This document shows, piece after piece, positions 1,842 through 18,576 of a DNA stretch of 64,000 bases (position 1 is the stretch's first letter; every line of letters begins with the position of its first letter). A program made the translations under genes and the position numbers. The DNA lies in contig QEVG01000003.1 of the NCBI GenBank assembly GCA_003576905.1, positions 115,357 to 179,356 on the forward strand, written 5' to 3'. Source of the DNA: Planctomycetota bacterium (GTDB taxonomy: Bacteria; Planctomycetota; Phycisphaerae; UBA1845; UTPLA1). A model generated the notes under the pieces. It did not search any database and was not told the DNA's origin. It saw nothing but the letters and a program-made list of their open reading frames with translations.

Positions 1842-2357
1842 TTACACCGATGCGGCCGCCTGGGCCCCCACGTAGCTGCCGCCCTGCTGCCGGCGGGCCA
1901 TGAACGCGCGTACGTCGAGAGACATTGGCACGACACCCGCGGCCCGCTTGAATCCCATTTCCTCGCAGAAATCCACTTCCGTGCCGTAGGCTGCCGCGTC
2001 GATCCGTTCGCAGCCCAACTCGGCCAGCGCCGATAGCACCAGCTCGGCCATCTGGCGAGCGATCCCGTACTGATCGTGCTCGATGCGCCCGTCGATGTGC
2101 GTCACCGCCCCCGGCCCCTGCCGCGCCGGGTCGAGCTTGCACTCGGTCAGGTAGCCGCGAACGCCGTCCGCCAGCCCCCGGGCGATGCCGATGAGCCGAC
2201 CGTCCGGGTCGCGCGCCGTCACGAAGCAGACCGAGTTGTCGATCATTTTGGAAAGCTTGTCGACGGACTGAGGCATCACGCAGCCCTGGGAGTCGTAAAA
2301 CGCCCGGAGCTCGGACACGTCCACTTTGTTCACGACTTCGCACCTGACGCCGTCCAT
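1842..2357 (-). CDS. GNAT-like acetyltransferase between rpoB and rpoC
   Basis: A 171-residue protein that resembles a GNAT N-acetyltransferase. The second half carries the pattern of GNAT motifs A and B: a CoA-loop-like QYGIAR, then a helix (MAELVLSALAELG), and the closing AYGTEVDFCEEMGFKRA, similar to the usual AYxxAxxFYxxxGF ending. The CoA loop is not the canonical RxxGxG, so the fit is moderate, and the substrate is unknown. The ATG at 2357 has a strong ribosome binding site, GAGGTGAGG, directly upstream. It sits 68 bp after rpoB and 123 bp before rpoC on the same strand, so it should be transcribed with them. Its position suggests, but does not prove, a role tied to RNA polymerase level or modification. 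Confidence 0.8.
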   Translation of the reverse strand: MDGVRCEVVNKVDVSELRAFYDSQGCVMPQSVDKLSKMIDNSVCFVTARDPDGRLIGIARGLADGVRGYLTECKLDPARQGPGAVTHIDGRIEHDQYGIARQMAELVLSALAELGCERIDAAAYGTEVDFCEEMGFKRAAGVVPMSLDVRAFMARRQQGGSYVGAQAAASV

Positions 2358-2404
2358 ACCTCACCTCGCTCTCCGTCGCGCCGGTCGCCCGGCATCCACC
2401 CATG

Positions 2405-2423
2405 CGCCCGCGTCACGCGGGCG
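2405..2423 (-). promoter_or_regulatory. GC hairpin between rpoB and the GNAT gene
   Basis: Perfect 8-bp stem CGCCCGCG/CGCGGGCG with a TCA loop, two bases after the rpoB stop codon. No T-run follows on the minus strand, so it is not a classical intrinsic terminator. It could limit read-through, protect the mRNA 3' end or mark a processing site within the operon. Confidence 0.4.
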
Positions 2424-2425
2424 AC

Positions 2426-6892
<4,467 letters not shown>

Positions 6893-7397
6893 CTTCGACC
6901 TTTCAACACGGATGCCCGCATGGGGGTATGTAAATTCTTACGCGGCCGCCGAGTGCCACTGGTTCGTCACCCACTTGACCCGGCGACCCGAAACCGCGCA
7001 GCCGGCGCGGCGCGCGGTCCCTCCGTCGCGAGTTCGTCCGCCGCCGAAACGGCTGAAAAGATAGGGTGTTCCCTGCGGAAGCGTCATCAAGCGGCCCGCG
7101 CGGCAGTCAACCAGTTTGTGTGCCCAGGGGACTGCCCGCTGCGGAGGCCATCCAGAATGAAGTCGACCAGTCCCACACCCGATCGACCAAGTTACGCCTC
7201 CGCGGCGGCGAGACCCATAAGTATAACCCTAAGCTCCTCCTACGCCAGAAAAAAATCAGCTTTTTTCGGGCCGACCCACACGCCCGGCATCCAGATTGCC
7301 ACCCCCCACGGCCATCCGCGATTGGCCACGCTCCGAAGATTATCGTAAGCTACTATAAATAACTAACTTATAGACAGAGTACTCTCGAACCGCCCCG
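6893..7397. other. 505-bp gap upstream of rpoB, probably holding its promoter
   Basis: No convincing gene. Both flanking genes are on the minus strand, so this should contain the rpoB promoter and the end of the cytochrome c transcript. An AT-rich island at 7338-7380 stands out in the GC-rich background and contains -10-like hexamers on the minus strand (TATAAG, TATAGT, GATAAT), without one clear -35 partner. At 7248-7267 an A/T inverted repeat (GAAAAAA with TTTTTTC) is weak as a terminator. The implied rpoB leader would be more than 400 nt. Confidence 0.3.
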
Positions 7398-8228
7398 TCA
7401 ATCCAACCCCTTCCCATCCCTCAGGAATCCATCCTCTGGGTGGGCAGGGTGCTCGAATCCGGTCGTCGGCGATGAACGACCTTCCCTTTTTCGTCGAGCG
7501 GTCTCCTTTTTGAACTTCTGAACCGCCTCGCGTGTTGGCGCGTCGCCGGAGTCCGTCGTTGACCGATACAGCCGAATGCGATGCCAATAGCTCGCCGCGC
7601 TCTTCGGCGGCCGTTTCACTTTCGTCAGCGCAAGCCGCCGGAGTATCGGGACCGCCTCCGCCTGTTGACGAATCGCATCCGCATCCTTCGGGCGATTAGA
7701 ACTCTTCTTCTCGACCGTTTTTGCCAGGAGCGCACCAAGCTCGTTGTGTGGATTCGCCTCCTGTCCCACCCCAAGCTGGTGTGTCGCCGTGTGGCACATC
7801 CTGCAACTGACTGCCGCCGTGATGCGCGCCGCGAGCGCCGCCTCGGGTGTGTCTTTCTTATTGGCCGGGCTCGTGTGAGCGAGAATTTCAACCCAGTTCG
7901 CAACGCCGTCGCCATCCACGTCGCTGTCCGGTGTCGAGGGCCGATTCGCCTGTTCCTCCGGCTTCTCTTCCCCGCCGTCCAGCCGCGAATCAGACTGCTC
8001 CATCTGAAGGATTCGCTCGGCCCAGCTCATGCCCGCTGGCCGATTCGCAAGGCGCCGGCCGTAGGCATTAAGCTCTTCGCTCGATTGGGATTCGTGACAC
8101 GACGTGCACCGCGCCTCGCGCACGACCAGGAGCGTCCGAACCTGCTCCAGGTGACGCTCCTTGCCAAGCCCCCTCTCGCCGCCGAGAAGAATCAAGGTTC
8201 CGACCAGCACAATTCGAGTCGTATTCAT
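7398..8228 (-). CDS. Secreted di-haem cytochrome c-like protein with Ca-binding repeat
   Basis: A 276-residue protein with an N-terminal hydrophobic segment (IVLVGTLILLGG), consistent with export. Two CxxCH haem c motifs are visible: CTSCH at about residue 40 and CRMCH at about residue 145. Between them DSDVDGDGVANW is a thrombospondin type 3/EF-hand-like calcium loop. After the second haem the chain is charged and probably extended. Multihaem secreted cytochromes of this sort are common in planctomycetes; the partner and potential are unknown. The ATG at 8228 lacks a clear Shine-Dalgarno sequence. The gene is divergent from the HtrA gene and lies upstream of rpoB. An extracellular electron carrier is the likeliest role. 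Confidence 0.75.
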   Translation of the reverse strand: MNTTRIVLVGTLILLGGERGLGKERHLEQVRTLLVVREARCTSCHESQSSEELNAYGRRLANRPAGMSWAERILQMEQSDSRLDGGEEKPEEQANRPSTPDSDVDGDGVANWVEILAHTSPANKKDTPEAALAARITAAVSCRMCHTATHQLGVGQEANPHNELGALLAKTVEKKSSNRPKDADAIRQQAEAVPILRRLALTKVKRPPKSAASYWHRIRLYRSTTDSGDAPTREAVQKFKKETARRKREGRSSPTTGFEHPAHPEDGFLRDGKGLD

Positions 8229-8557
8229 CGCCGTATCGTATGTACATCACGCCGGCGCCAGTAGTCGGGTGGCGAGCCTTTCGGGCAGGCCCTGCGCATA
8301 CCGACTCGTCGCTGCGGCGACTCGACCCCCTCACCGCCGGGGCTTCTTCCGGAGTCCCACACAATCCTGCAACGGACACGCCGACAAGGAGATACAATAG
8401 CATGGGCCGTCCGAGAACCCGCCACGATGCGGCGTTCAGGACGTTCTCGGTCGCGGCCCCCAAGCCGCCGATCGCGGAGGGAAAGTCCGGCCACGCCGAC
8501 TACGATCAAGTGTACGGGCAGGATTCAGACCGGTTTGCCAACACGCGAGGAGTGTCT
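8229..8557. other. Divergent intergenic region, cytochrome c / htrA
   Basis: 329 bp between two divergent genes. The HtrA reading frame stays open through it. AAGGAGAT at 8386-8393 stands before an in-frame ATG at 8402, an alternative HtrA start that would add 52 residues before the signal peptide. No clear promoter pair was found. Confidence 0.4.
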
Positions 8558-10105
8558 ATGCGACGCAGCCGTTACGCCATGGAATCGCGCCGGATTGCCG
8601 TTTCACTGTCGATCGCGTTGGCCGCCGGGCTGCTTCCGAGTGCCGCGTCCGGGTTTCAGCAGATGCAGCCGACCGGCAAGCTCCTGCCCACCGGCGCGGC
8701 AGCCTCCGACCTGGAGCGTATCTCCAACGGGTTCGCCGAAATCGCCGAACGCGTCAAGCCGTCGGTCGTCAGCATCAAATCCATGGCGATCAACGAAGAA
8801 ATGAACGCCGAGCTGCGCCGCATGTTCGGCGACCGCGACTTTCAGCCCATTCCCGTCTCCGGCACCGGCAGCGGAGTCATTTTTGACCCTGCCGGCTATA
8901 TCGTGACCAACAACCACGTCGTTGAAGACGCCGATGTCGTGCGCGTTACGCTTGCCGACGGACGGGAACTTGAGGCGGAGGTTGTCGGAACCGACTCGAT
9001 GACCGATCTCGCGGTCATAAGGATCGACGGAAATAACCTGACCGCGTGCCACTTCGGCGACTCCGATGCCGTCCGCGTCGGCAATCTCGTCCTCGCGATC
9101 GGCAGCCCCTTCAAGTTCGGTCACAGCGTATCCCACGGAATCATCAGCGCGGTCGGGCGAAGCAACGTCGACGTGGAGATTGACTACAAGAACTGGATTC
9201 AGACCGACGCCGCGATTAACCCCGGAAACTCCGGCGGTCCCCTCATCAACACGCGCGGAGAGATCATCGGTATCAGCGTGGCAATTGCCACCGAATCGGG
9301 CGGCTACCAGGGCGTCGGGTTCGCCATCCCGTCCAACACCGTCGCCCGCGTCACAGAGACCCTGAAGCGCGGCGAAAAGGTCGTCCGCGGATACCTCGGC
9401 GTGATCATCAAGGCCGTCAACACAACGATCGCCGAAGGCTACGGGCTGAACGAAGCGAAAGGCGCCATGCTCCAGACAATCGGCCCGGATACGCCGGCCG
9501 AGAAAGCGGGACTTCAGGCCGAAGACATCATCCTCGCCATCGACGGCCGCGAGATCAAAGGGCTCGAAGAGCTCCAGGAACGCGTCGCGCACATGACGCC
9601 CGGAACGCGCTCGATGTTCCGCGTCTGGCGAAAGCGCGCCGTGCGGGAGATTCCCGTCGAGATCGGCCGGCAGCCCGAGCACTTCCGGACACAGGGCACA
9701 CAGGAAGACCTGTCGCCTCGCGGCAAGGAGTCGCCGCGCGACATGCAGCCGACCGATCGCACGACGCGCGCCCAGCCGTCGAAGTCCGCTGCCGAGCCGG
9801 GCTCCGAGTACTTCCCCAGGTTCGGAATGCACGTCGCCGATCTGACGTCCGACCTGCGCGACAAGTACAACGTCGCCGCAGGTATTACCTCCGGCGTTCT
9901 CGTCACGGGCGTTGATCCCCTGGGCGAAGCGTTCAATGCCGAGCTTCGCCGCCGGTGCGTCATTCGCCGCGTCAACGACGAAGAGGTGAAGAACCTCGCG
10001 GACTTCAAACGCCTCCTCGAAAAGCACAAGGCGTCGCGCGGCCTGCGCCTCGCCGTGCAGATCGGCGAGGACACATACCACACGGTGATTCGAAACTACG
10101 AGTAG
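8558..10105 (+). CDS. HtrA/DegP-type periplasmic serine protease with two PDZ domains
   Basis: Envelope protein quality-control protease of 515 residues. A signal peptide (basic MRRSRYAMESRR, then hydrophobic to about residue 30) directs export. The chymotrypsin-like domain has the complete triad: H120 in TNNHVVED, D150 in SMTDLAVI, S225 in NPGNSGGP. PDZ1 begins at GYLGVIIKAV; a second, more diverged PDZ-like domain occupies the last hundred residues (FGMHVADL to the C-terminus), after a polar linker rich in Pro, Ser and Arg. The start at 8558 is chosen because GAGGAG lies five bases upstream and the signal peptide begins there. DegP and DegQ cannot be told apart from sequence. No partner gene is next to it; stress control is expected but no sigma-E-like site was recognised. 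Confidence 0.95.
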   Translation: MRRSRYAMESRRIAVSLSIALAAGLLPSAASGFQQMQPTGKLLPTGAAASDLERISNGFAEIAERVKPSVVSIKSMAINEEMNAELRRMFGDRDFQPIPVSGTGSGVIFDPAGYIVTNNHVVEDADVVRVTLADGRELEAEVVGTDSMTDLAVIRIDGNNLTACHFGDSDAVRVGNLVLAIGSPFKFGHSVSHGIISAVGRSNVDVEIDYKNWIQTDAAINPGNSGGPLINTRGEIIGISVAIATESGGYQGVGFAIPSNTVARVTETLKRGEKVVRGYLGVIIKAVNTTIAEGYGLNEAKGAMLQTIGPDTPAEKAGLQAEDIILAIDGREIKGLEELQERVAHMTPGTRSMFRVWRKRAVREIPVEIGRQPEHFRTQGTQEDLSPRGKESPRDMQPTDRTTRAQPSKSAAEPGSEYFPRFGMHVADLTSDLRDKYNVAAGITSGVLVTGVDPLGEAFNAELRRRCVIRRVNDEEVKNLADFKRLLEKHKASRGLRLAVQIGEDTYHTVIRNYE

Positions 10106-10252
10106 CGCGCATTCAGAGTCGCCGACTCCGGTGAGAGCCGGCAATGTCTCGATTCCGAAACCGTGCGATCCGTTCAGACCCTCCAAATCCACTCGTTTTT
10201 CGCCGATTCGGGTATGCGGGTCCGCGAATCTATGTTACAATCTACAGGGCGA

Positions 10253-11778: not shown

Positions 11779-13947
11779 ATGAATAAACGCCCTAATCAAG
11801 CTCAGTTCCGCATTCCGGTCCGATGGTTCCTTGGCATCGGCGCGCTGACGGCCGTCGTTATCGCTGCCGCCCCCGAACCCGCACACGCCTACATCGGCCC
11901 CGGCGCAGGCTTCGCCATCGCGTCCAGCCTGATCGTCATCGTGTGGACCATGATCCTCGCGATGCTCACGCTCCTGCTCTGGCCCATCCGCTGGGTCATC
12001 CGCTCCATCAAGGGGCGCAAGGCATTCTCCAAGGCGCGAGTGCGGCGGCTCGTCATCCTCGGTCTCGACGGCATGGAGCCGAGCCTCGCCGAGAAATTCA
12101 TGGCCGAGGGCAAGCTGCCCAACCTCAGGATGCTCGCAGAAAAAGGCTGCTACAAGAAGCTCGGCACGGTGACACCTCCCCTGTCACCCGTGGCGTGGTC
12201 CAGCTTTCTGACCGGCGTCAACCCCGGTAAGCACAACATCTACGACTTCCTCAACAGCGACCGGCGAACCTACCTGCCGAATCTCTCCAGCGTCTCGATT
12301 CACGCCCCGACGAAGACGATCAAGCTCGGCAGGTACACCATCCCGCTCAACAAACCGGAGATTCGCCTGCTCCGCAAAGGAAAGCCGTTCTGGAACACCC
12401 TCGGCGAGCACGGTATCTTCACCTCGGTGATCCGCGTGCCGATCACCTGGCCGCCGGAGAAGTGCCGCGGCGTCGTCCTTTCCGCCATGTGCGTGCCCGA
12501 CCTGCGTGGCACCCAGGGCCTGTTTTCCTTCTACAGCACGCGCCCGGCCGGGCCCGAACGGACCGGCGGCGAGCAGATTGTCGTAAAGCGCGAGGGAGAC
12601 ATCGTCCGCTCGGAGCTTGTCGGCCCCGACAACAGCGTCAAGGAAGGCGCCGGCGCCATGAGAGTCCCTTTCACCGTCGAAATCGGCAAAGGCAAGGCCG
12701 ACGCCCTGCTCACCATCGACGACGAATCGTACGACCTCAAGATCGGCGATTACACACCCTGGATCATCGCCAAGTTCAAGGCCGGGCCGGGCGTAACGGT
12801 CAACGGAATCTGCCGTTTCCTCCTTCTGTCGGTTAAGCCCGAGTTCGAGCTGTACGTGACGCCGATCAATCTCGACCCCGAAAAGCCGGCCATGCCGATC
12901 TCCTTCCCGACCGCTTACAGCACCTACCTCGCCAAGCGATACGGCAGCTACGCGACCCTTGGCCTCGCGGAAGACACCTGGGCGCTGAACGAGGAACTCA
13001 TTGACGACGACGCCTTTCTCGAGCAGTGCGTCTCGATCGACAACGAACGGGAGAAACAGTTCTTCGACGCCCTGGAGAACACCCGCCGCGGCCTGTGCGT
13101 CTGCGTCTTTGACGGTACCGACCGCATTCAGCACATGTTCTGGCGCTACCTCGAGCCGCACCACCCGGCCCACCCGAGAAACCTCAATCCCGACTACACG
13201 CCGAGCCGCCACGAAAAGACCATCGAGGATCTGTACACCCGGATGGACAAGCTCGTTGGTGACACGATGTCCAAGGTGCTGAACGGCGATGGCGACACCA
13301 TGCTTATGGTGGTCTCCGATCACGGCTTTTCGCCTTTCCGCCGCGGCATCGACCTCAACCGCTGGCTGATCGAAAACGGATACATGAAACTCAAGCCCGA
13401 CGCCGATCCCAACGCGAAGTTCCTCGCCACGGTCGACTGGTCGCGGACCCGCGCCTACGCGCTCGGCCTTGCGGGTATGTTCATCAATCAAAAAGGCCGC
13501 GAGGCACAGGGAATCGTCGAGCCGGGCGCCGAGATGAAACAGCTCAAGGCCGAGATCATCTCAAAGATGTCCGGCATGAAGGACCCCAAGACCGGCGAAG
13601 TGGCCGTCACACGCGTCCAGGACAAGGAAATCTGCTACAAGGGCCCCTTCCGCGACACCGCGCCCGATCTCGTCGTCGGCTACAACCGCGGCTACCGCGT
13701 CGGATGGGACACGGCCATCGGAAAGATCACGCCCGACGTCTTCCACGACAACACGAAGGCCTGGAGCGGCGATCACTGCATCGATCCCGACCTGATACCG
13801 GGCGTCCTCTTCTGCAGCCACAAGGTCCTGTCCGATTCGCCGCGACTGATGGACCTCGGACCGACCGCGCTGGAGCTTTTCGGCGTGGCCGTCCCCGAGA
13901 ACATGGACGGCGTGCCCCTCAAGATTCAAACAGGAGCCGCCGCATGA
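11779..13947 (+). CDS. Membrane-anchored alkaline phosphatase superfamily hydrolase (type I phosphodiesterase-like)
   Basis: A 722-residue enzyme of the alkaline phosphatase superfamily, nearest in style to type I phosphodiesterase/nucleotide pyrophosphatase. Two hydrophobic segments (about 17-35 and 45-70) anchor it, with a GPGAGFAIASS stretch between. Metal-site motifs are complete: D97 in GLDGME, a likely Ser nucleophile S136 in LSPVAW (aligned with the Thr of NPPs), TDRIQH, SDHGF and GDHC. The middle of the chain is a large insert. Substrate is unknown; phosphodiester or sulfate/phosphonate ester cleavage in the envelope is the family expectation. ATG at 11779 is preferred as the start of a proper signal/anchor although its ribosome binding site is poor. 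Its stop overlaps the start of the next gene by ATGA. Confidence 0.88.
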   Translation: MNKRPNQAQFRIPVRWFLGIGALTAVVIAAAPEPAHAYIGPGAGFAIASSLIVIVWTMILAMLTLLLWPIRWVIRSIKGRKAFSKARVRRLVILGLDGMEPSLAEKFMAEGKLPNLRMLAEKGCYKKLGTVTPPLSPVAWSSFLTGVNPGKHNIYDFLNSDRRTYLPNLSSVSIHAPTKTIKLGRYTIPLNKPEIRLLRKGKPFWNTLGEHGIFTSVIRVPITWPPEKCRGVVLSAMCVPDLRGTQGLFSFYSTRPAGPERTGGEQIVVKREGDIVRSELVGPDNSVKEGAGAMRVPFTVEIGKGKADALLTIDDESYDLKIGDYTPWIIAKFKAGPGVTVNGICRFLLLSVKPEFELYVTPINLDPEKPAMPISFPTAYSTYLAKRYGSYATLGLAEDTWALNEELIDDDAFLEQCVSIDNEREKQFFDALENTRRGLCVCVFDGTDRIQHMFWRYLEPHHPAHPRNLNPDYTPSRHEKTIEDLYTRMDKLVGDTMSKVLNGDGDTMLMVVSDHGFSPFRRGIDLNRWLIENGYMKLKPDADPNAKFLATVDWSRTRAYALGLAGMFINQKGREAQGIVEPGAEMKQLKAEIISKMSGMKDPKTGEVAVTRVQDKEICYKGPFRDTAPDLVVGYNRGYRVGWDTAIGKITPDVFHDNTKAWSGDHCIDPDLIPGVLFCSHKVLSDSPRLMDLGPTALELFGVAVPENMDGVPLKIQTGAAA

Positions 13948-16043
13948 CTTCGCGGACCCCGCGCGTCGCACCCTTCCGTCGATTCCCTGCCTTCGTCCTT
14001 TCGGCCGGAGTGTCAATTGCATTGGCACTTTCGCCCGCCGGCTGCGACCGGTCCGCCGAGGCCGGCCGTGCCGTCGCCAGGGCCGGAGGCAAGCGCGTCT
14101 GCGTCATCGGCTGCGACGGCATGGACCCCAAGCTCGTCCGCCGCATGATCGACGAGGGCCGCCTGCCCAACCTCGCCCGGCTCGAAAAGGAGGGCGGCTT
14201 CAAGCCCCTCGAAACCAGCATCCCCCCCCAAAGCCCCGTCGCATGGTCAAACTTCATCACCGGCGCGGGCCCCGGTGTGCACGGCATATTTGACTTCATC
14301 CATCGCGACCCGACGCGCCAGGCCTCGCCCTATTTCAGCACCAACCGCATCATCAGCGCCGAGGAGAAACCCCCGATCAAGGTCGGCGATTACGAAATCC
14401 CACAGGAAATGGTCCTCCCGTGGGTAAAGGGCGCGGAGAACGAGCTCCTCCGCCGAGGCACCCCTTTCTGGGATTTCCTCGACGAACGCGGCATTCCCAT
14501 TCAGATGTACAAGCTCCCCGCCAATTATCCCCCGAGCGAGTCGAAGCACGACCACATGTGCTGCCTCGCCGGCATGGGAGTGCCCGACGCCTTCGGATCA
14601 CAGGGAATCTACCAGCAGTTTTCCACCCGGCCGCGCCGCGAGGTCAAGGCATCCGATGGATATAAGCTCCGACTCGCGCCCGACAAAGAATCCGGCGCGT
14701 ACGCAGCGAAGATCTGGGGACCGCCCAACGAGTTGGTCAAAAAGCACCCCGACCTGTTCGTCGAGATGAAGGTCTATCCCGACCCCCAGAAGCCGGTCGC
14801 GAAAATCGTGTACGTCAACAAGGGCCTCACCGGCGACGAGACCGTTGAGCTGGTCCTCAACGTCGGGCAGGTCAGTGACTGGAGCGAGATTCACTTCCTC
14901 AAGACGCCGGTCGGGCCGGGCATGCGCGTCATGGCGCGGTTCCTGCTTCAGCGCGTCCGACCCGACGTCGAAATCTACATGACTCCGCTAAACTTTGTGC
15001 CGGACGCCCCCGAGGCCGTCATCAGCGAACCGCCTGAGTTCGCGGCCGAGATCGCGGAGGCCATCGGCCCGTATCACACCCAGGGTTTCGCCGAGGCCTT
15101 CAACGCCCGTAAGCACCAGTTGCTCAGCGACGAGGAATACCGCATCCAGTCTGACAACGTGCTCCGCGAAAGCGAAAAAATGATGGAGTACGCCCTCGAC
15201 CGTTTCCAGGAAGGCGTTCTCTTCTTCTATTACTCCAGCACCGACCTTCAGGCCCACATCTTCTGGTGGGACTCCGATGACAAGCACCCGGCTCGTCCCC
15301 CGGAAGACGCGAAGAAATACATGGGCGTCGTGGAGGAAGCTTACATCCGAATGGACAAGGCCCTTGCCCGCTGCCGCGAAAAGCTCGGCGAGGACACCAC
15401 GTACATCGTGATGTCGGACCACGGGTTCTGTAATTTCCGCCGGTGCGTCGGGCTCTGCACATGGCTGCGAAACGAAGGGTATCTTGTCGCCGATCGCGGC
15501 GTCCTGGTCGACGCCGACTGGTCAAAAAGCAAGGCCTACGGCCTGGGGCTGAACGGCCTCTATGTCAACCTGAAGGGACGCGAGAAACTTGGTATCGTGG
15601 ATCCCTCCGAAAGGGACGCGCTGCTCAAGGAGATCAGCGAGAAGCTCCTGGCCCTCAAGGACCCCGAAACGGGCCGAAACGTCGTCCGGCGCGTCTATCG
15701 CGCCGATGAATGCTACAAGGGACCCGAGGCGAAGAACGCCCCCGACTTGATCATCGGCTACGAGCGAGACTACCGCGCGAGCTGGAACACCTGCCTCGGC
15801 GAGTTTGACAAGGAAGTGGTATTCGACAATGACAACCCCTGGAGCGCCGATCACTGCATCGCGCACGATGTCGTGCCCGGAATCGTCTTGAGCAACCGGA
15901 AGATCAACTCCTCGGCCCCGGCCCTGGTGGACATGGCCCCGACCCTCCTCGCCGAGTTTGGAATCGAGAAGCCCGATTACATGACCGGGGGCAGCATCTT
16001 CGCCGAATCAAAGGACCAGGTCGCCGCCCGATCCGGCCGATAG
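13944..16043 (+). CDS. Alkaline phosphatase superfamily lipoprotein, paralogue of the preceding gene
   Basis: A 699-residue paralogue of the upstream enzyme. It has a lipoprotein signal with lipobox SPAGC (C34), so it is probably lipid-anchored rather than membrane-spanning. The motifs match one by one: D58 in GCDGMD, S97 in QSPVAW, TDLQAH, SDHGF and ADHC; a shared WSNFITG/WSSFLTG block follows the nucleophile. All metal ligands are therefore kept and both copies look active. Start at 13944 overlaps the previous stop (ATGA) and has CAGGAG seven bases upstream, indicating translational coupling. The tandem pair with different anchoring suggests two enzymes acting at different membrane positions on related substrates (inference). 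Confidence 0.88.
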   Translation: MTSRTPRVAPFRRFPAFVLSAGVSIALALSPAGCDRSAEAGRAVARAGGKRVCVIGCDGMDPKLVRRMIDEGRLPNLARLEKEGGFKPLETSIPPQSPVAWSNFITGAGPGVHGIFDFIHRDPTRQASPYFSTNRIISAEEKPPIKVGDYEIPQEMVLPWVKGAENELLRRGTPFWDFLDERGIPIQMYKLPANYPPSESKHDHMCCLAGMGVPDAFGSQGIYQQFSTRPRREVKASDGYKLRLAPDKESGAYAAKIWGPPNELVKKHPDLFVEMKVYPDPQKPVAKIVYVNKGLTGDETVELVLNVGQVSDWSEIHFLKTPVGPGMRVMARFLLQRVRPDVEIYMTPLNFVPDAPEAVISEPPEFAAEIAEAIGPYHTQGFAEAFNARKHQLLSDEEYRIQSDNVLRESEKMMEYALDRFQEGVLFFYYSSTDLQAHIFWWDSDDKHPARPPEDAKKYMGVVEEAYIRMDKALARCREKLGEDTTYIVMSDHGFCNFRRCVGLCTWLRNEGYLVADRGVLVDADWSKSKAYGLGLNGLYVNLKGREKLGIVDPSERDALLKEISEKLLALKDPETGRNVVRRVYRADECYKGPEAKNAPDLIIGYERDYRASWNTCLGEFDKEVVFDNDNPWSADHCIAHDVVPGIVLSNRKINSSAPALVDMAPTLLAEFGIEKPDYMTGGSIFAESKDQVAARSGR

Positions 16044-16048
16044 GGATA

Positions 16049-16065
16049 CCGCCGCACCGCGGCGG
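16049..16065 (+). promoter_or_regulatory. Intercistronic hairpin
   Basis: Perfect 7-bp stem CCGCCGC/GCGGCGG with an ACC loop, between the second AP hydrolase and the 68-residue gene, just before the latter's ribosome binding site. It may tune relative expression within the operon. Confidence 0.35.
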
Positions 16066-16085
16066 AAACAGGAAGGAGAACAGAC

Positions 16086-16292
16086 GTGTTCGGTGGAAAC
16101 GTGAAGCTCGACAAGGCCCTGTTGGAGCGCGCCGCGCGCTACGCAAAGGTCGCCGGCTATTCCAGTGTCGATGAATTCATCGCACACGCCCTCGAAAACG
16201 AGCTTGCCAAGCTCGACGAGGCCAAGGGTGCCGGCTCGGAAACCGATCCCGCCGTCCTCGAGCGCCTGCGCGGCCTGGGATACATCGAATAA
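16086..16292 (+). CDS. Small conserved-type protein of the AP-hydrolase cluster
   Basis: A 68-residue protein starting at GTG with a strong ribosome binding site (GGAAGGAG, 16071-16078). It is mostly helical: residues 7-23 (LDKALLERAARYAKVAG) and 27-44 (VDEFIAHALENELAKL) look like a ribbon-helix-helix or simple helix pair. It ends with LRGLGYIE, a tail often seen at the C-terminus of planctomycete sulfatase/phosphatase-type and TPR proteins (from memory). I do not know its function. The position between the AP hydrolases and the membrane protein, all on one strand with short gaps, makes it part of the cluster. It could be a DNA-binding regulator or a small adaptor. Confidence 0.7.
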   Translation: MFGGNVKLDKALLERAARYAKVAGYSSVDEFIAHALENELAKLDEAKGAGSETDPAVLERLRGLGYIE

Positions 16293-16313
16293 TCGCAACG
16301 CGGGATCGACCCC

Positions 16314-17138
16314 TTGGACATCGTCACGCGCATCATGACGTTTCTCGGCGACCTTGTGTTCGCCGTCCTTGGCCTGCTCTCGCCGGCCTGGGCGCTGGTC
16401 ATCATCTCCGCGCTCACCGGCGTAGCGATGCTGCTCATCTGGCGGCACACCTCCAATCAGGACGCCATCGAGGACGTCCGAAAGCAGATTTCCGCCCACC
16501 TGCTCGCGTCGCGCCTCTTCAAGGACGACCTCTCTGTCACATTCCGCGCCCAGCGTCAGATCGTCTGGCAGGCGCTTCGGCTTATGGGCCATTCGATCCG
16601 CCCGATGATCATCATGACGGTCCCTTTTGTCCTCATCATGGTGCAGATCGGACTCCGCTACGAGTTCCGACCCATGCCGGTCGGCGAGCCGACCCGGATA
16701 AAAGTCACCATGAAGGACAGGTCCAAGGTGCGCGGCATCGGCGACCAGATTGTTCTGCCCGATGGACTCATGGCCGATGCCAACGACCCCTGCCGCGCGA
16801 TTCCGATTCGAACCATCGACTGGCGCGTGACCCCCAGAAACCCGGGCTCGTTCCGCGTCACTTTCGGCGCCGGTTCCGATGTTGTGGAATTGCCCGTCCA
16901 CGCCGGCGACGGCTTTATGCGCATCAGCAAGCTGCGTGGGGGGCCGTTCTTCGACCGCCTGCTCTACTCGGCCGAGCCGTCCATTCCCGCGGCTTCCGCT
17001 TTTGAATCCGTAGAAGTGTTCTATCCGGCCCGATCGACCCCGATCCTTGGCGTCGATGTGCACTGGCTGATCTCGCTCCTGGTGCTCTCGATCGTCTTCG
17101 CCCTGCTCTTCAAGCCATTCTTCAAGGTACACATCTGA
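16314..17138 (+). CDS. Integral membrane protein, possible Oxa1/EMC3-like topology
   Basis: A 274-residue membrane protein I do not firmly recognise. One or two hydrophobic segments lie at about 9-43, then a polar helical stretch of about 50 residues containing FRAQRQIVWQALRLMGHSI, a transmembrane segment at about 96-114 (MIIMTVPFVLIMVQIGL), a soluble domain of about 130 residues with beta-rich character, and a final transmembrane segment (WLISLLVLSIVFALLF). The cytoplasmic helical hairpin followed by a Met-rich membrane helix recalls the DUF106/EMC3/YidC (Oxa1) group, but this is only a topology-level guess. It starts at TTG 16314 (weak ribosome binding site); an ATG at 16335 is possible. 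It closes the AP-hydrolase cluster. Confidence 0.7.
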   Translation: MDIVTRIMTFLGDLVFAVLGLLSPAWALVIISALTGVAMLLIWRHTSNQDAIEDVRKQISAHLLASRLFKDDLSVTFRAQRQIVWQALRLMGHSIRPMIIMTVPFVLIMVQIGLRYEFRPMPVGEPTRIKVTMKDRSKVRGIGDQIVLPDGLMADANDPCRAIPIRTIDWRVTPRNPGSFRVTFGAGSDVVELPVHAGDGFMRISKLRGGPFFDRLLYSAEPSIPAASAFESVEVFYPARSTPILGVDVHWLISLLVLSIVFALLFKPFFKVHI

Positions 17139-17190: not shown

Positions 17191-18576
17191 TCATCCGCCG
17201 CCCCGCGACTTCATCGACCCCGCCACGCGCATGCGTACGACCGCCCAGAGCGGCCGCGCGAGCGGACTGGCCGTTCGTCTCCCCGGTGCAGGCGGCGCCG
17301 AACCCGTGCGGGACGCCGCGCCCGCCAGCGACCGGAGCCGTGCGCAGAACCGCCCCCAGCGCGACCGCGGCGAGAGCGTCGCCGCCAGTCCTGCGAGCTC
17401 CGCCCCAAGCTCGCCCGCCGACGCGAATCGCTTCTCGCAGTTGGCATGCACCGCCTGGGCAATCACCGTGCCGAGAAAATATCGAAACATGCGATCGTCA
17501 AAGGCCCCGCCGCGCCGCGCCGAACCGGCGCGGATATTGCCCAGCGACAGCCGCAGCCGTCCGCGGTGCATGTCTGGCAGTTGGCCAACGAGGATTTCGT
17601 GCGCGATCAGCCCGAGCGCATACACGTCCGATCGGGCCGTCAGATCCGAAACGCGCCCTGCGAGCTGTTCAGGGCTTGCGTACTGCGGCGTCCCTGCGAA
17701 CACATTCTCCCGCGTGCCGATCATGCTCGATCCCGCCGCGACGATCTGCGCAATTCCGAAATCGAGAATCTTCGGCTTCGGAGACCGATGCGCGCGCGGC
17801 GCCGTGAACCAGCCGATCCGCGAGTCGTCGCGGACGCCTCCGTCCACGCCCCCCGGCCCCTCTTCGCCGCCGACCTCCATTACCAGAATGTTGGAGGGCT
17901 TCAGATCGAGGTGAATTATCCCGCGCCCGTGGGCGTACTCCACCACGTCGCAGATGCGCACGAGAAGCTCCAGCCGCTCGCGCACGTCCAGCTTGTGTTT
18001 CTCAACGTAGGCCTTGAGCGACGCCCCGCGCACGTATTCCATCACGAAGTAATAGTTGCACGAGCGAAATGCGTTGTTCGCCATGTTCGCGTAGATCATG
18101 CGCGCTATGCCGGGGTGCCGAAGCTGACGGAGGATCTCCGCCTCGTACGCGAAACGCTGACGCCCCTCCGCCGACGACAGCCGCTTCTGTAGCACCTTGA
18201 TCGCCACCGGGCGGCCCGAGGTCACATGGACGCCGCGATAGACGATGCCCATGCCACCGCGGCCGACTGTCTCGAGAATCCGGTACTGATCGATGTATTT
18301 CGGGAGGTACTCTGGCTCTTCCAGCTCGACAGCGTTCCGCTCCGCGAGCCTGCGGATGAAGGTCGTCCCCCCCTCCGCACGCCACGTCGTCCCGAGCGGC
18401 GAGACCGCCCGCGACGCATTCGCTCTCTGAAAATGCGGCAGCAACGAAAGGACTTCCTGAAGCAGCACGGCCTCGCCGGCACACATCCGCCTCGCATAGG
18501 CCGCACGGTCCGGCGCGGGCAGCCGGCTGGCCGCCTCAAGAACCGCGTGCACGCGACTGTGAAAGTCAGTGCGCAT
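17191..18576 (-). CDS. Hanks-type Ser/Thr protein kinase (non-RD)
   Basis: A 461-residue eukaryotic-like kinase. Residues 1-95 form a helical N-terminal region; the kinase domain runs from YRILETVGRGGMG (P-loop) to about 400. K127 (VAIKVL), the catalytic loop IIHLDLKPSN (D224) and DFGIA are all present, so it should be active. Leu replaces the Arg of HRD, making it a non-RD kinase not dependent on classical activation-loop phosphorylation. A Gly-rich insert (GGEEGPGGVDGG) follows the catalytic loop. No transmembrane helix or sensor is visible after the kinase domain, so it is probably soluble. Its start overlaps the end of the ECF sigma gene by 11 bp, so the two are made together and probably act in one signalling circuit. 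Confidence 0.92.
   Translation of the reverse strand: MRTDFHSRVHAVLEAASRLPAPDRAAYARRMCAGEAVLLQEVLSLLPHFQRANASRAVSPLGTTWRAEGGTTFIRRLAERNAVELEEPEYLPKYIDQYRILETVGRGGMGIVYRGVHVTSGRPVAIKVLQKRLSSAEGRQRFAYEAEILRQLRHPGIARMIYANMANNAFRSCNYYFVMEYVRGASLKAYVEKHKLDVRERLELLVRICDVVEYAHGRGIIHLDLKPSNILVMEVGGEEGPGGVDGGVRDDSRIGWFTAPRAHRSPKPKILDFGIAQIVAAGSSMIGTRENVFAGTPQYASPEQLAGRVSDLTARSDVYALGLIAHEILVGQLPDMHRGRLRLSLGNIRAGSARRGGAFDDRMFRYFLGTVIAQAVHANCEKRFASAGELGAELAGLAATLSPRSRWGRFCARLRSLAGAASRTGSAPPAPGRRTASPLARPLWAVVRMRVAGSMKSRGGG

Follow-up and report, generated by a model that had tools for sequence, protein, structure and literature searches.

The window, a stretch of 64,000 nucleotides from a Planctomycetota bacterium (contig QEVG01000003.1, here C29, of a 4.7 Mb genome), carries four genes on one strand between positions 11,779 and 17,138: two paralogous enzymes of the alkaline phosphatase (AP) superfamily, AP1 and AP2, a small ribbon-helix-helix (RHH)-like protein, P3, and a membrane protein, P4. 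AP1 (11779..13947, + strand) encodes a 722-residue member of the type I phosphodiesterase/nucleotide pyrophosphatase family that is predicted to be anchored in the inner membrane. AP2 (13944..16043, +) encodes its 699-residue paralogue, predicted to be exported, with a signal peptide and an imperfect lipobox. The two open reading frames (ORFs) overlap as ATGA at 13944-13947, and a median AP1-AP2 gap of -4 bp across the loci compared below makes this type of overlap typical. P3 (16086..16292, +; 68 residues) starts with GTG and ends in LRGLGYIE, and P4 (16314..17138, +; 274 residues) is an Oxa1-superfamily-like protein that starts with TTG. Both starts align with those of homologues, which for P3 begin MFGG. 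An earlier sequence-only reading had described the four genes, the ATGA coupling and the ending of P3, all of which the coordinates and ORFs confirm.

Neighbourhoods from 33 of the other 34 P4-bearing genomes, together with 80 loci from named genomes taken by AP1 alignment (the best 80 of at least 579), give a comparison of 113 loci. AP1-AP2-P3-P4 follow one another in this order on one strand at 83 loci, and a permuted AP2-P3-P4-AP1 order is present at nine. Of the remaining 21, 16 are judged, from the gene positions, to be truncated at the end of a contig (L039, L062, L071, L073, L080, L082, L086, L095, L096, L107, L112, L116, L126, L133, L134 and L143), and five are real exceptions: L040 has a single AP gene and no P3, L060 and L061 have a P4 of another subfamily, L069 yields no P4 by tblastn, and L100 retains an AP2 remnant. 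Such conservation of gene order greatly exceeds what chance would give. Records with the complete set carry eight phylum-level labels (Planctomycetota, Desulfobacterales/Thermodesulfobacteriota, Acidobacteria (also Aminicenantes), Kiritimatiellaeota, Poribacteria, Calditrichota, Dadabacteria and one "Bacteroidota"), of which single labels may be wrong because most records are metagenome-assembled genomes (MAGs). Two sulfatase genes stand between AP1 and AP2 in the Calditrichota locus L118 and one between P3 and P4 in the Dadabacteria locus L135. The closest AP1 relative among the matches listed, 71% identical, comes from a Phycisphaerae MAG. The suggestion that the cluster is a dedicated system, which the earlier reading thought might modify a phosphate-containing lipid, glycan or protein, is supported as regards the dedicated system by this comparison, in which the four families are regular rather than rare neighbours.

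Some copies are broken: P4 is split into two ORFs at L122:6395-7200, AP2 is split at L104:5984-8130, and the AP2 remnant lies at L100:2437-2883. These may be frameshifts, assembly errors or decay. PADLOC models returned no family at E ≤ 0.01 for the four proteins, and an anti-phage defence system was rejected on this ground. A plasmid-borne set was likewise rejected, as P4 has no match at E ≤ 0.1 in 72,556 plasmid records.

AP1 and AP2 score 111.7 and 120.3 bits, respectively, against Pfam Phosphodiest (PF01663; cut-off 23). Seven positions, the ligands of a two-metal site and the nucleophile, which we mapped from nucleotide pyrophosphatase/phosphodiesterase structures, are D97, S136, D448, H452, D514, H515 and H666 in AP1 and D58, S97, D434, H438, D492, H493 and H637 in AP2. 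All seven are identical in 104/107 AP1 and 90/91 AP2 relatives, with Thr in place of the Ser nucleophile in the exceptions (three AP1, one AP2), in agreement with the full set of metal ligands first noted for both enzymes. Formylglycine sulfatases carry a C/S-x-P-x-R nucleophile motif, from which the S-P-V-A-W of the window AP1 and AP2 departs. As a single sequence, AP1 finds nothing at E ≤ 0.001 among solved structures. The profiles match solved chains weakly, the best being a sulfatase for AP1 (E = 8.5e-6) and a phosphonoacetate hydrolase for AP2 (E = 9.3e-5). Solved PF01663 chains (2gsn, 7mw8 and 7n1s) have the core domain and the seven positions in common with AP1 and AP2, which differ from them in a length of ~700 residues, a Ser nucleophile, a long insertion, the pairing of inner and outer paralogues and the weakness of the profile matches.

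AP1 is composed of a signal-like segment, a YIGPGAGF motif (Y-[IVA]-G-P-G-A-G-F, near-invariant among AP1 proteins), one transmembrane segment (TM), a basic stretch and the catalytic domain. Of 108 AP1 proteins, 92 could be read with this pattern and the other 16 were not counted; the basic stretch is net positive in all 92, with medians of eight K/R, no D/E and 23 residues in length. Because of this net-positive stretch after the TM, the positive-inside rule predicts a cytoplasmic catalytic domain. The lipobox of the window AP2, S-P-A-G-C, is imperfect, with Pro at -3. Crude patterns assign 99 AP2 relatives to lipobox (38), twin-arginine (Tat; 10), Sec-like (34) or no signal (17), leaving some export signal in 82/99; the AP2 of L034 is of the Tat type. 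AP1 and AP2 are thus predicted to act on opposite faces of the membrane, with AP2 outside, a point absent from the earlier reading. The initial view of one membrane-spanning and one lipoprotein enzyme stands for AP1, which has its TM, and needs loosening for AP2, given the imperfect lipobox and the 38/99 share among relatives.

The P3 model contains helices at residues 10-23, 28-47 and 55-64 joined by a loose linker, and no signal peptide is seen. Residues 1 to 46-48 superpose on RHH chains, for example NikR 1q5v (Z 5.8, 1.2 Å over 46 residues). Structural neighbours reach Z ≤ 6.5 with a monomer model that has no strand, and most of those listed are RHH proteins. Pfam RHH_1 matches 12 of 61 P3 members at E ≤ 0.05. 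The N-terminal part of P3 superposes on RHH regulators such as NikR, CopG and Arc, with modest Z, and P3 differs from them by the added linker and C-terminal tail. This tail, L.GLGY[IL]x, is present in 97/97 P3 relatives counted one per locus, and L110 bears a second, partial P3 copy.

The P4 model (predicted local distance difference test score, pLDDT, 95.6) has helices at 24-46, 49-68, 73-116 and 251-270, giving TM1 at ~24-46, a hairpin from 49 to ~90 that is predicted to be cytoplasmic, TM2 extending to ~116 and TM3 at 251-270. An immunoglobulin (Ig)-like domain, predicted to be periplasmic, occupies ~120-235 and is inserted before TM3. A profile of 83 P4 proteins matches the archaeal YidC-like protein MJ0480 (5c8j; E = 6.3e-9) across the TM1-hairpin-TM2 part, and filamin Ig domains (E = 0.0035) across the part after TM2. 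In the VIA structural comparison, the best match is chain 8 of 7tut (Z 10.7; 136 residues over 18-274), a 177-residue chain of a multipass translocon entry that we take to be TMCO1, followed by filamin Ig domains (Z 6.4); 7tut is the only VIA row that we recognise as Oxa1-type. TMCO1 is described in the multipass translocon complex of 7tut in the available part of PMC9630114. The 50 rows that Foldseek listed for P4 are largely Ig-like, filamin and S-layer domains, alongside a mixture of other chains. None reaches E ≤ 0.001, and no Oxa1-type protein was recognised among the matches listed, so the Oxa1 link comes from the profile search and the VIA comparison and not from Foldseek.

Three TMs with a hairpin between TM1 and TM2, the Oxa1 core, are present in P4, with sidedness predicted. 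The same three-TM core and cytoplasmic hairpin characterise the Oxa1 superfamily (archaeal DUF106/MJ0480, EMC3 and TMCO1) in the accessible sections of PMC8675477 and PMC8887752, the former naming YidC as the prokaryotic family. Unlike the archaeal and eukaryotic members, P4 is bacterial, lies in an operon with hydrolases and carries an Ig-like domain before TM3. On profile and model, P4 is a bacterial Oxa1-superfamily relative with a predicted Ig-like insertion before TM3. The Oxa1/EMC3-like topology that had been proposed for the last protein is hereby strengthened, and no unrelated known family claimed it. The P4 profile also picks up, with E values from 2e-13 to 7e-7, a second EMC3-like family in bacteria with a similar layout, at L060:7820-8809, L061:7915-8817, L144:982-1866, L145:1045-1932 and L146:991-1866. 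Its gene directly follows one for a phosphoenolpyruvate (PEP)-utilising enzyme at all four loci scanned with Pfam, and in L060 and L061 the enzyme gene itself comes after that of a pyrroloquinoline quinone (PQQ) beta-propeller protein that has a membrane segment at its N-terminus.

Neighbouring genes were tallied at 112 loci with a core match (L061 left out) by similarity to ten representative sequences; weak matches (35-68 bits) underlie some of the arylsulfotransferase and CysQ-like assignments. Clustering of the neighbours and Pfam assignment of these representatives reveal ATP-sulfurylase, APS_kinase, Sulfotransfer_3, Inositol_P (CysQ-like) and Arylsulfotrans, together with sulfatases, another Phosphodiest protein and a CysN-type GTPase/adenosine 5'-phosphosulfate (APS) kinase. 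Genes for synthesis of 3'-phosphoadenosine 5'-phosphosulfate (PAPS) are present at 25/112 loci, at 17 of them less than 500 bp from the core; a sulfotransferase homologue is also present at 25/112, at 21 of them less than 250 bp away; and a CysQ-like phosphatase is found at eight. At least one PAPS, sulfotransferase, CysQ-like or arylsulfotransferase gene occurs at 52/112 loci, rising to 69 when sulfatase-like genes are included, with none of these in the stretch examined at the other 43. On the scale of whole genomes, 34 P4-bearing genomes have an APS kinase gene, and in 18 of them it sits no more than 10 kb from P4, compared with 0.20 expected by chance; the corresponding figures are 15/27 for ATP sulfurylase (0.14 expected), 3/12 for the sulfotransferase (0.05 expected) and 0/32 for the control, ATP synthase gamma (0.15 expected). 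The 18 genomes with APS kinase near P4 span nine family labels. This recurrence beside PAPS-synthesis genes, a sulfotransferase and sulfatases is the strongest clue, and one out of reach of the earlier sequence-only reading.

Planctomycetota loci such as L042 show the following order: RHH-LGYL gene, ATP sulfurylase, A7, APS kinase, AP1, AP2, P3 and P4. A7 (L042:8008-8964) is a 318-residue sulfatase-fold protein with an invariant Thr78 in the nucleophile region; it and eight relatives measure 304-321 residues, show no visible signal and lie between ATP sulfurylase and APS kinase. The ~190-residue sulfotransferase at L102:13247-13834 has 24 relatives, with LYR[NQK]R near the C-terminus in 21/25, and is encoded on the same strand less than 250 bp downstream of P4 at 16 loci. 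Elsewhere in the window genome (L151, contig C14), three consecutive large ORFs with sulfatase matches (2151-4661, 4727-7606 and 7733-10195) are found, none ending in an LGY tail.

The LGY-type tail extends beyond P3. It occurs on 20 of 7763 other ORFs of the loci, compared with 0.15 in shuffles and ~1 from the internal rate, and is lacking in AP1 and AP2 themselves. Ten belong to the sulfatase cluster (five Pfam-confirmed), another two are of PAPS_reduct type (CysD-like) and a further two are APS-kinase proteins; the other six are L058_848, L072_12240 and ORFs in L044, L046, L108 and L115. Because the sulfatases are homologous to each other, the 20 tails are not 20 independent events. The ORFs of L044 (13713-14243), L115 (6857-7387), L046 and L108 end in QLGYL and lie upstream of AP1 on the opposite strand. 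A second RHH-like protein, ending in KL.NLGYL or similar, directly precedes ATP sulfurylase at nine loci (L036, L037, L038, L042, L045, L054, L056, L057 and L058) and APS kinase at L032. Three of these RHH-LGYL proteins were without a Pfam match at E ≤ 0.001, which leaves weak P3-profile matches (23-34 bits) as the basis for calling this family RHH. At L040, which lacks P3, a sulfatase ending in LRSLGYIK lies 107 bp from P4. Matches of one tailed sulfatase to the PDB end before the LGY tail. One idea is that P3 may supply in trans the tail that the sulfatases carry in cis.

In the window itself, the set is flanked upstream by a Deg/HtrA-type protease, trypsin-like and carrying PDZ domains (8240-10105), and downstream by a Ser/Thr protein kinase on the minus strand (17191-18576).

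We tentatively favour a conserved module of the inner membrane that, together with PAPS-dependent sulfation, builds or matures a sulfated component of the envelope, a reading we regard as possible rather than probable. It draws on the operon, the protein families, the metal sites, the superfamily of P4 and the neighbours of its relatives as observed above, and on sidedness as predicted; the chemistry we infer would run as follows. Sat/CysN-D and APS kinase would make PAPS, which the small sulfotransferase, acting at the cytoplasmic face, would use on a phosphate-linked carrier intermediate. AP1 on the inner face and AP2 on the outer face could cleave or transfer phosphodiester groups of this intermediate. 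The hydrophilic groove typical of Oxa1-type proteins might allow P4 to pass the lipid-linked intermediate, or the short exported N-terminal segment of AP1, while the Ig domain would hold AP2. P3 may act as a dimeric RHH protein that links or regulates the parts, its LGY tail docking on a cytoplasmic partner, most simply AP1. Insertases scramble lipids according to the available portion of PMC10491306; a lipid-linked intermediate is therefore possible, and nothing further follows. The boldest version, a new sulfation machine in which an AP-fold pair on opposite faces relays a PAPS-derived phosphate-linked intermediate through an EMC3/TMCO1-type P4, organised by an RHH dimer with an LGY docking code common to sulfatases and sulfate-activating enzymes, is in our judgement unlikely.

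Several observations weigh against the envelope-sulfation module. P4 falls under the Pfam EMC3_TMCO1 (PF01956) cut-off, with 17.1 versus 27.1 bits, and is therefore filed in the Oxa1 superfamily and not in that Pfam family, which matches 7/83 P4 relatives at E ≤ 0.01. The PAPS, sulfotransferase, CysQ-like and arylsulfotransferase genes are lacking at 60/112 loci, many of the stretches being short. Tail probabilities for proximity to P4, ranging from 1e-5 (sulfotransferase) to 8e-32 (APS kinase), are too small because the sampled genomes are related and independence is overstated. APS kinase is a common gene, present in 11/14 control genomes, and the sulfotransferase family occurs in only 12/35 P4-bearing genomes; it is therefore not an obligatory partner, or is replaceable. 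The window locus has no adjoining sulfation gene of these families, the APS kinase, ATP sulfurylase and sulfotransferase of its genome lying on contigs C7, C49 and C43, respectively; this sulfotransferase is 54% identical to that of L102. The set is also patchy: P4 is found in 35 of the 199 genomes sampled from the phylum, a count that includes the genome of the window, and 11 of 12 other genomes of the window's class have no P4 match, while the remaining one (G111, L061) carries a P4 from a different subfamily and lacks the AP genes. As for P3, an adaptor role is deduced, and an RHH protein may simply bind DNA.

The nearest precedent that we found for placing RHH and AP-type genes next to those of PAPS synthesis is an archaeal cluster (Pyrococcus yayanosii pych_17520-17560 and relatives), given in the available text of PMC8268124 as putative copG, ATP sulfurylase, DHH pApase, type I phosphodiesterase and APS kinase. 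The likeness lies in the grouping of an RHH-type gene, ATP sulfurylase, APS kinase and an AP-superfamily phosphodiesterase, which a sulfotransferase adjoins in some archaea; the RHH-like LGY-tailed gene before ATP sulfurylase at nine loci here can be likened to the archaeal copG. As described in that text, the archaeal cluster includes no mention of a P4-like protein or a pair of large AP enzymes, and the AP-type protein between sat and APS kinase here is of Sulfatase fold and 304-321 residues, unlike the archaeal type I phosphodiesterase. Its authors guess that the phosphodiesterase removes pyrophosphate (PPi), and similar gene types adjoin the set here, which argues for by-product clearance: AP1, with the Thr-nucleophile AP-type protein between sat and APS kinase in some Planctomycetota, would hydrolyse PPi, 3'-phosphoadenosine 5'-phosphate (PAP) or other nucleotides, P3 and the second RHH-like protein would be sulfur-gene repressors, and P4 a membrane partner. 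AP2, the constant partner of AP1 and mostly bearing export signals, would nevertheless miss cytosolic by-products, CysQ-like phosphatases are already present at 8/112 loci, and P4 is left without a job; we give this explanation a small chance of being right.

Two further explanations each seem improbable to us. The Oxa1-type core would suit P4 as a true insertase placing AP1 or the LGY-tailed sulfatases, with AP1 having its N-terminus out after signal cleavage, then the TM and a cytoplasmic domain, and with P3 as a targeting factor bearing the same tail. The LGY tails common to P3, sulfatases and sulfate-activation enzymes, and the tailed sulfatase beside P4 at L040 in the absence of P3, are consistent with such protein biogenesis, in which the two hydrolases would be superfluous. 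Sulfatases of the tailed kind are, moreover, usually exported by Sec, and our impression is that neither the sequence nor the model of P3 hints at binding hydrophobic segments. A phosphorus module unrelated to sulfation, in which an RHH regulator controls two phosphodiesterases and their membrane partner, would instead reduce the sulfur neighbours to shared regulation. The enzyme family is that of phosphodiesterases and not formylglycine sulfatases, and the 60/112 loci without close sulfation genes fit this; set against it, sulfur genes, unlike the control gene, recur right beside AP1-P4 across several phylum labels.

No description of the four-gene set was recognised in the literature searched, which covers part of published work. 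Sulfated glycosaminoglycan-like polymers are reported for Kiritimatiellae in the accessible part of PMC7356697, in which a word search returned no phosphodiesterase, alkaline phosphatase or insertase. Should the envelope-sulfation module prove correct, it would represent a second, non-YidC Oxa1 branch in bacteria, tied to a defined enzyme set, and would offer a genetic handle on the bacterial sulfation of envelope molecules. It raises a testable question as to what role an EMC3/TMCO1-like protein plays other than that of a general insertase. The groups in which the set recurs are largely uncultured, and it may bear on how they make and degrade sulfated material.

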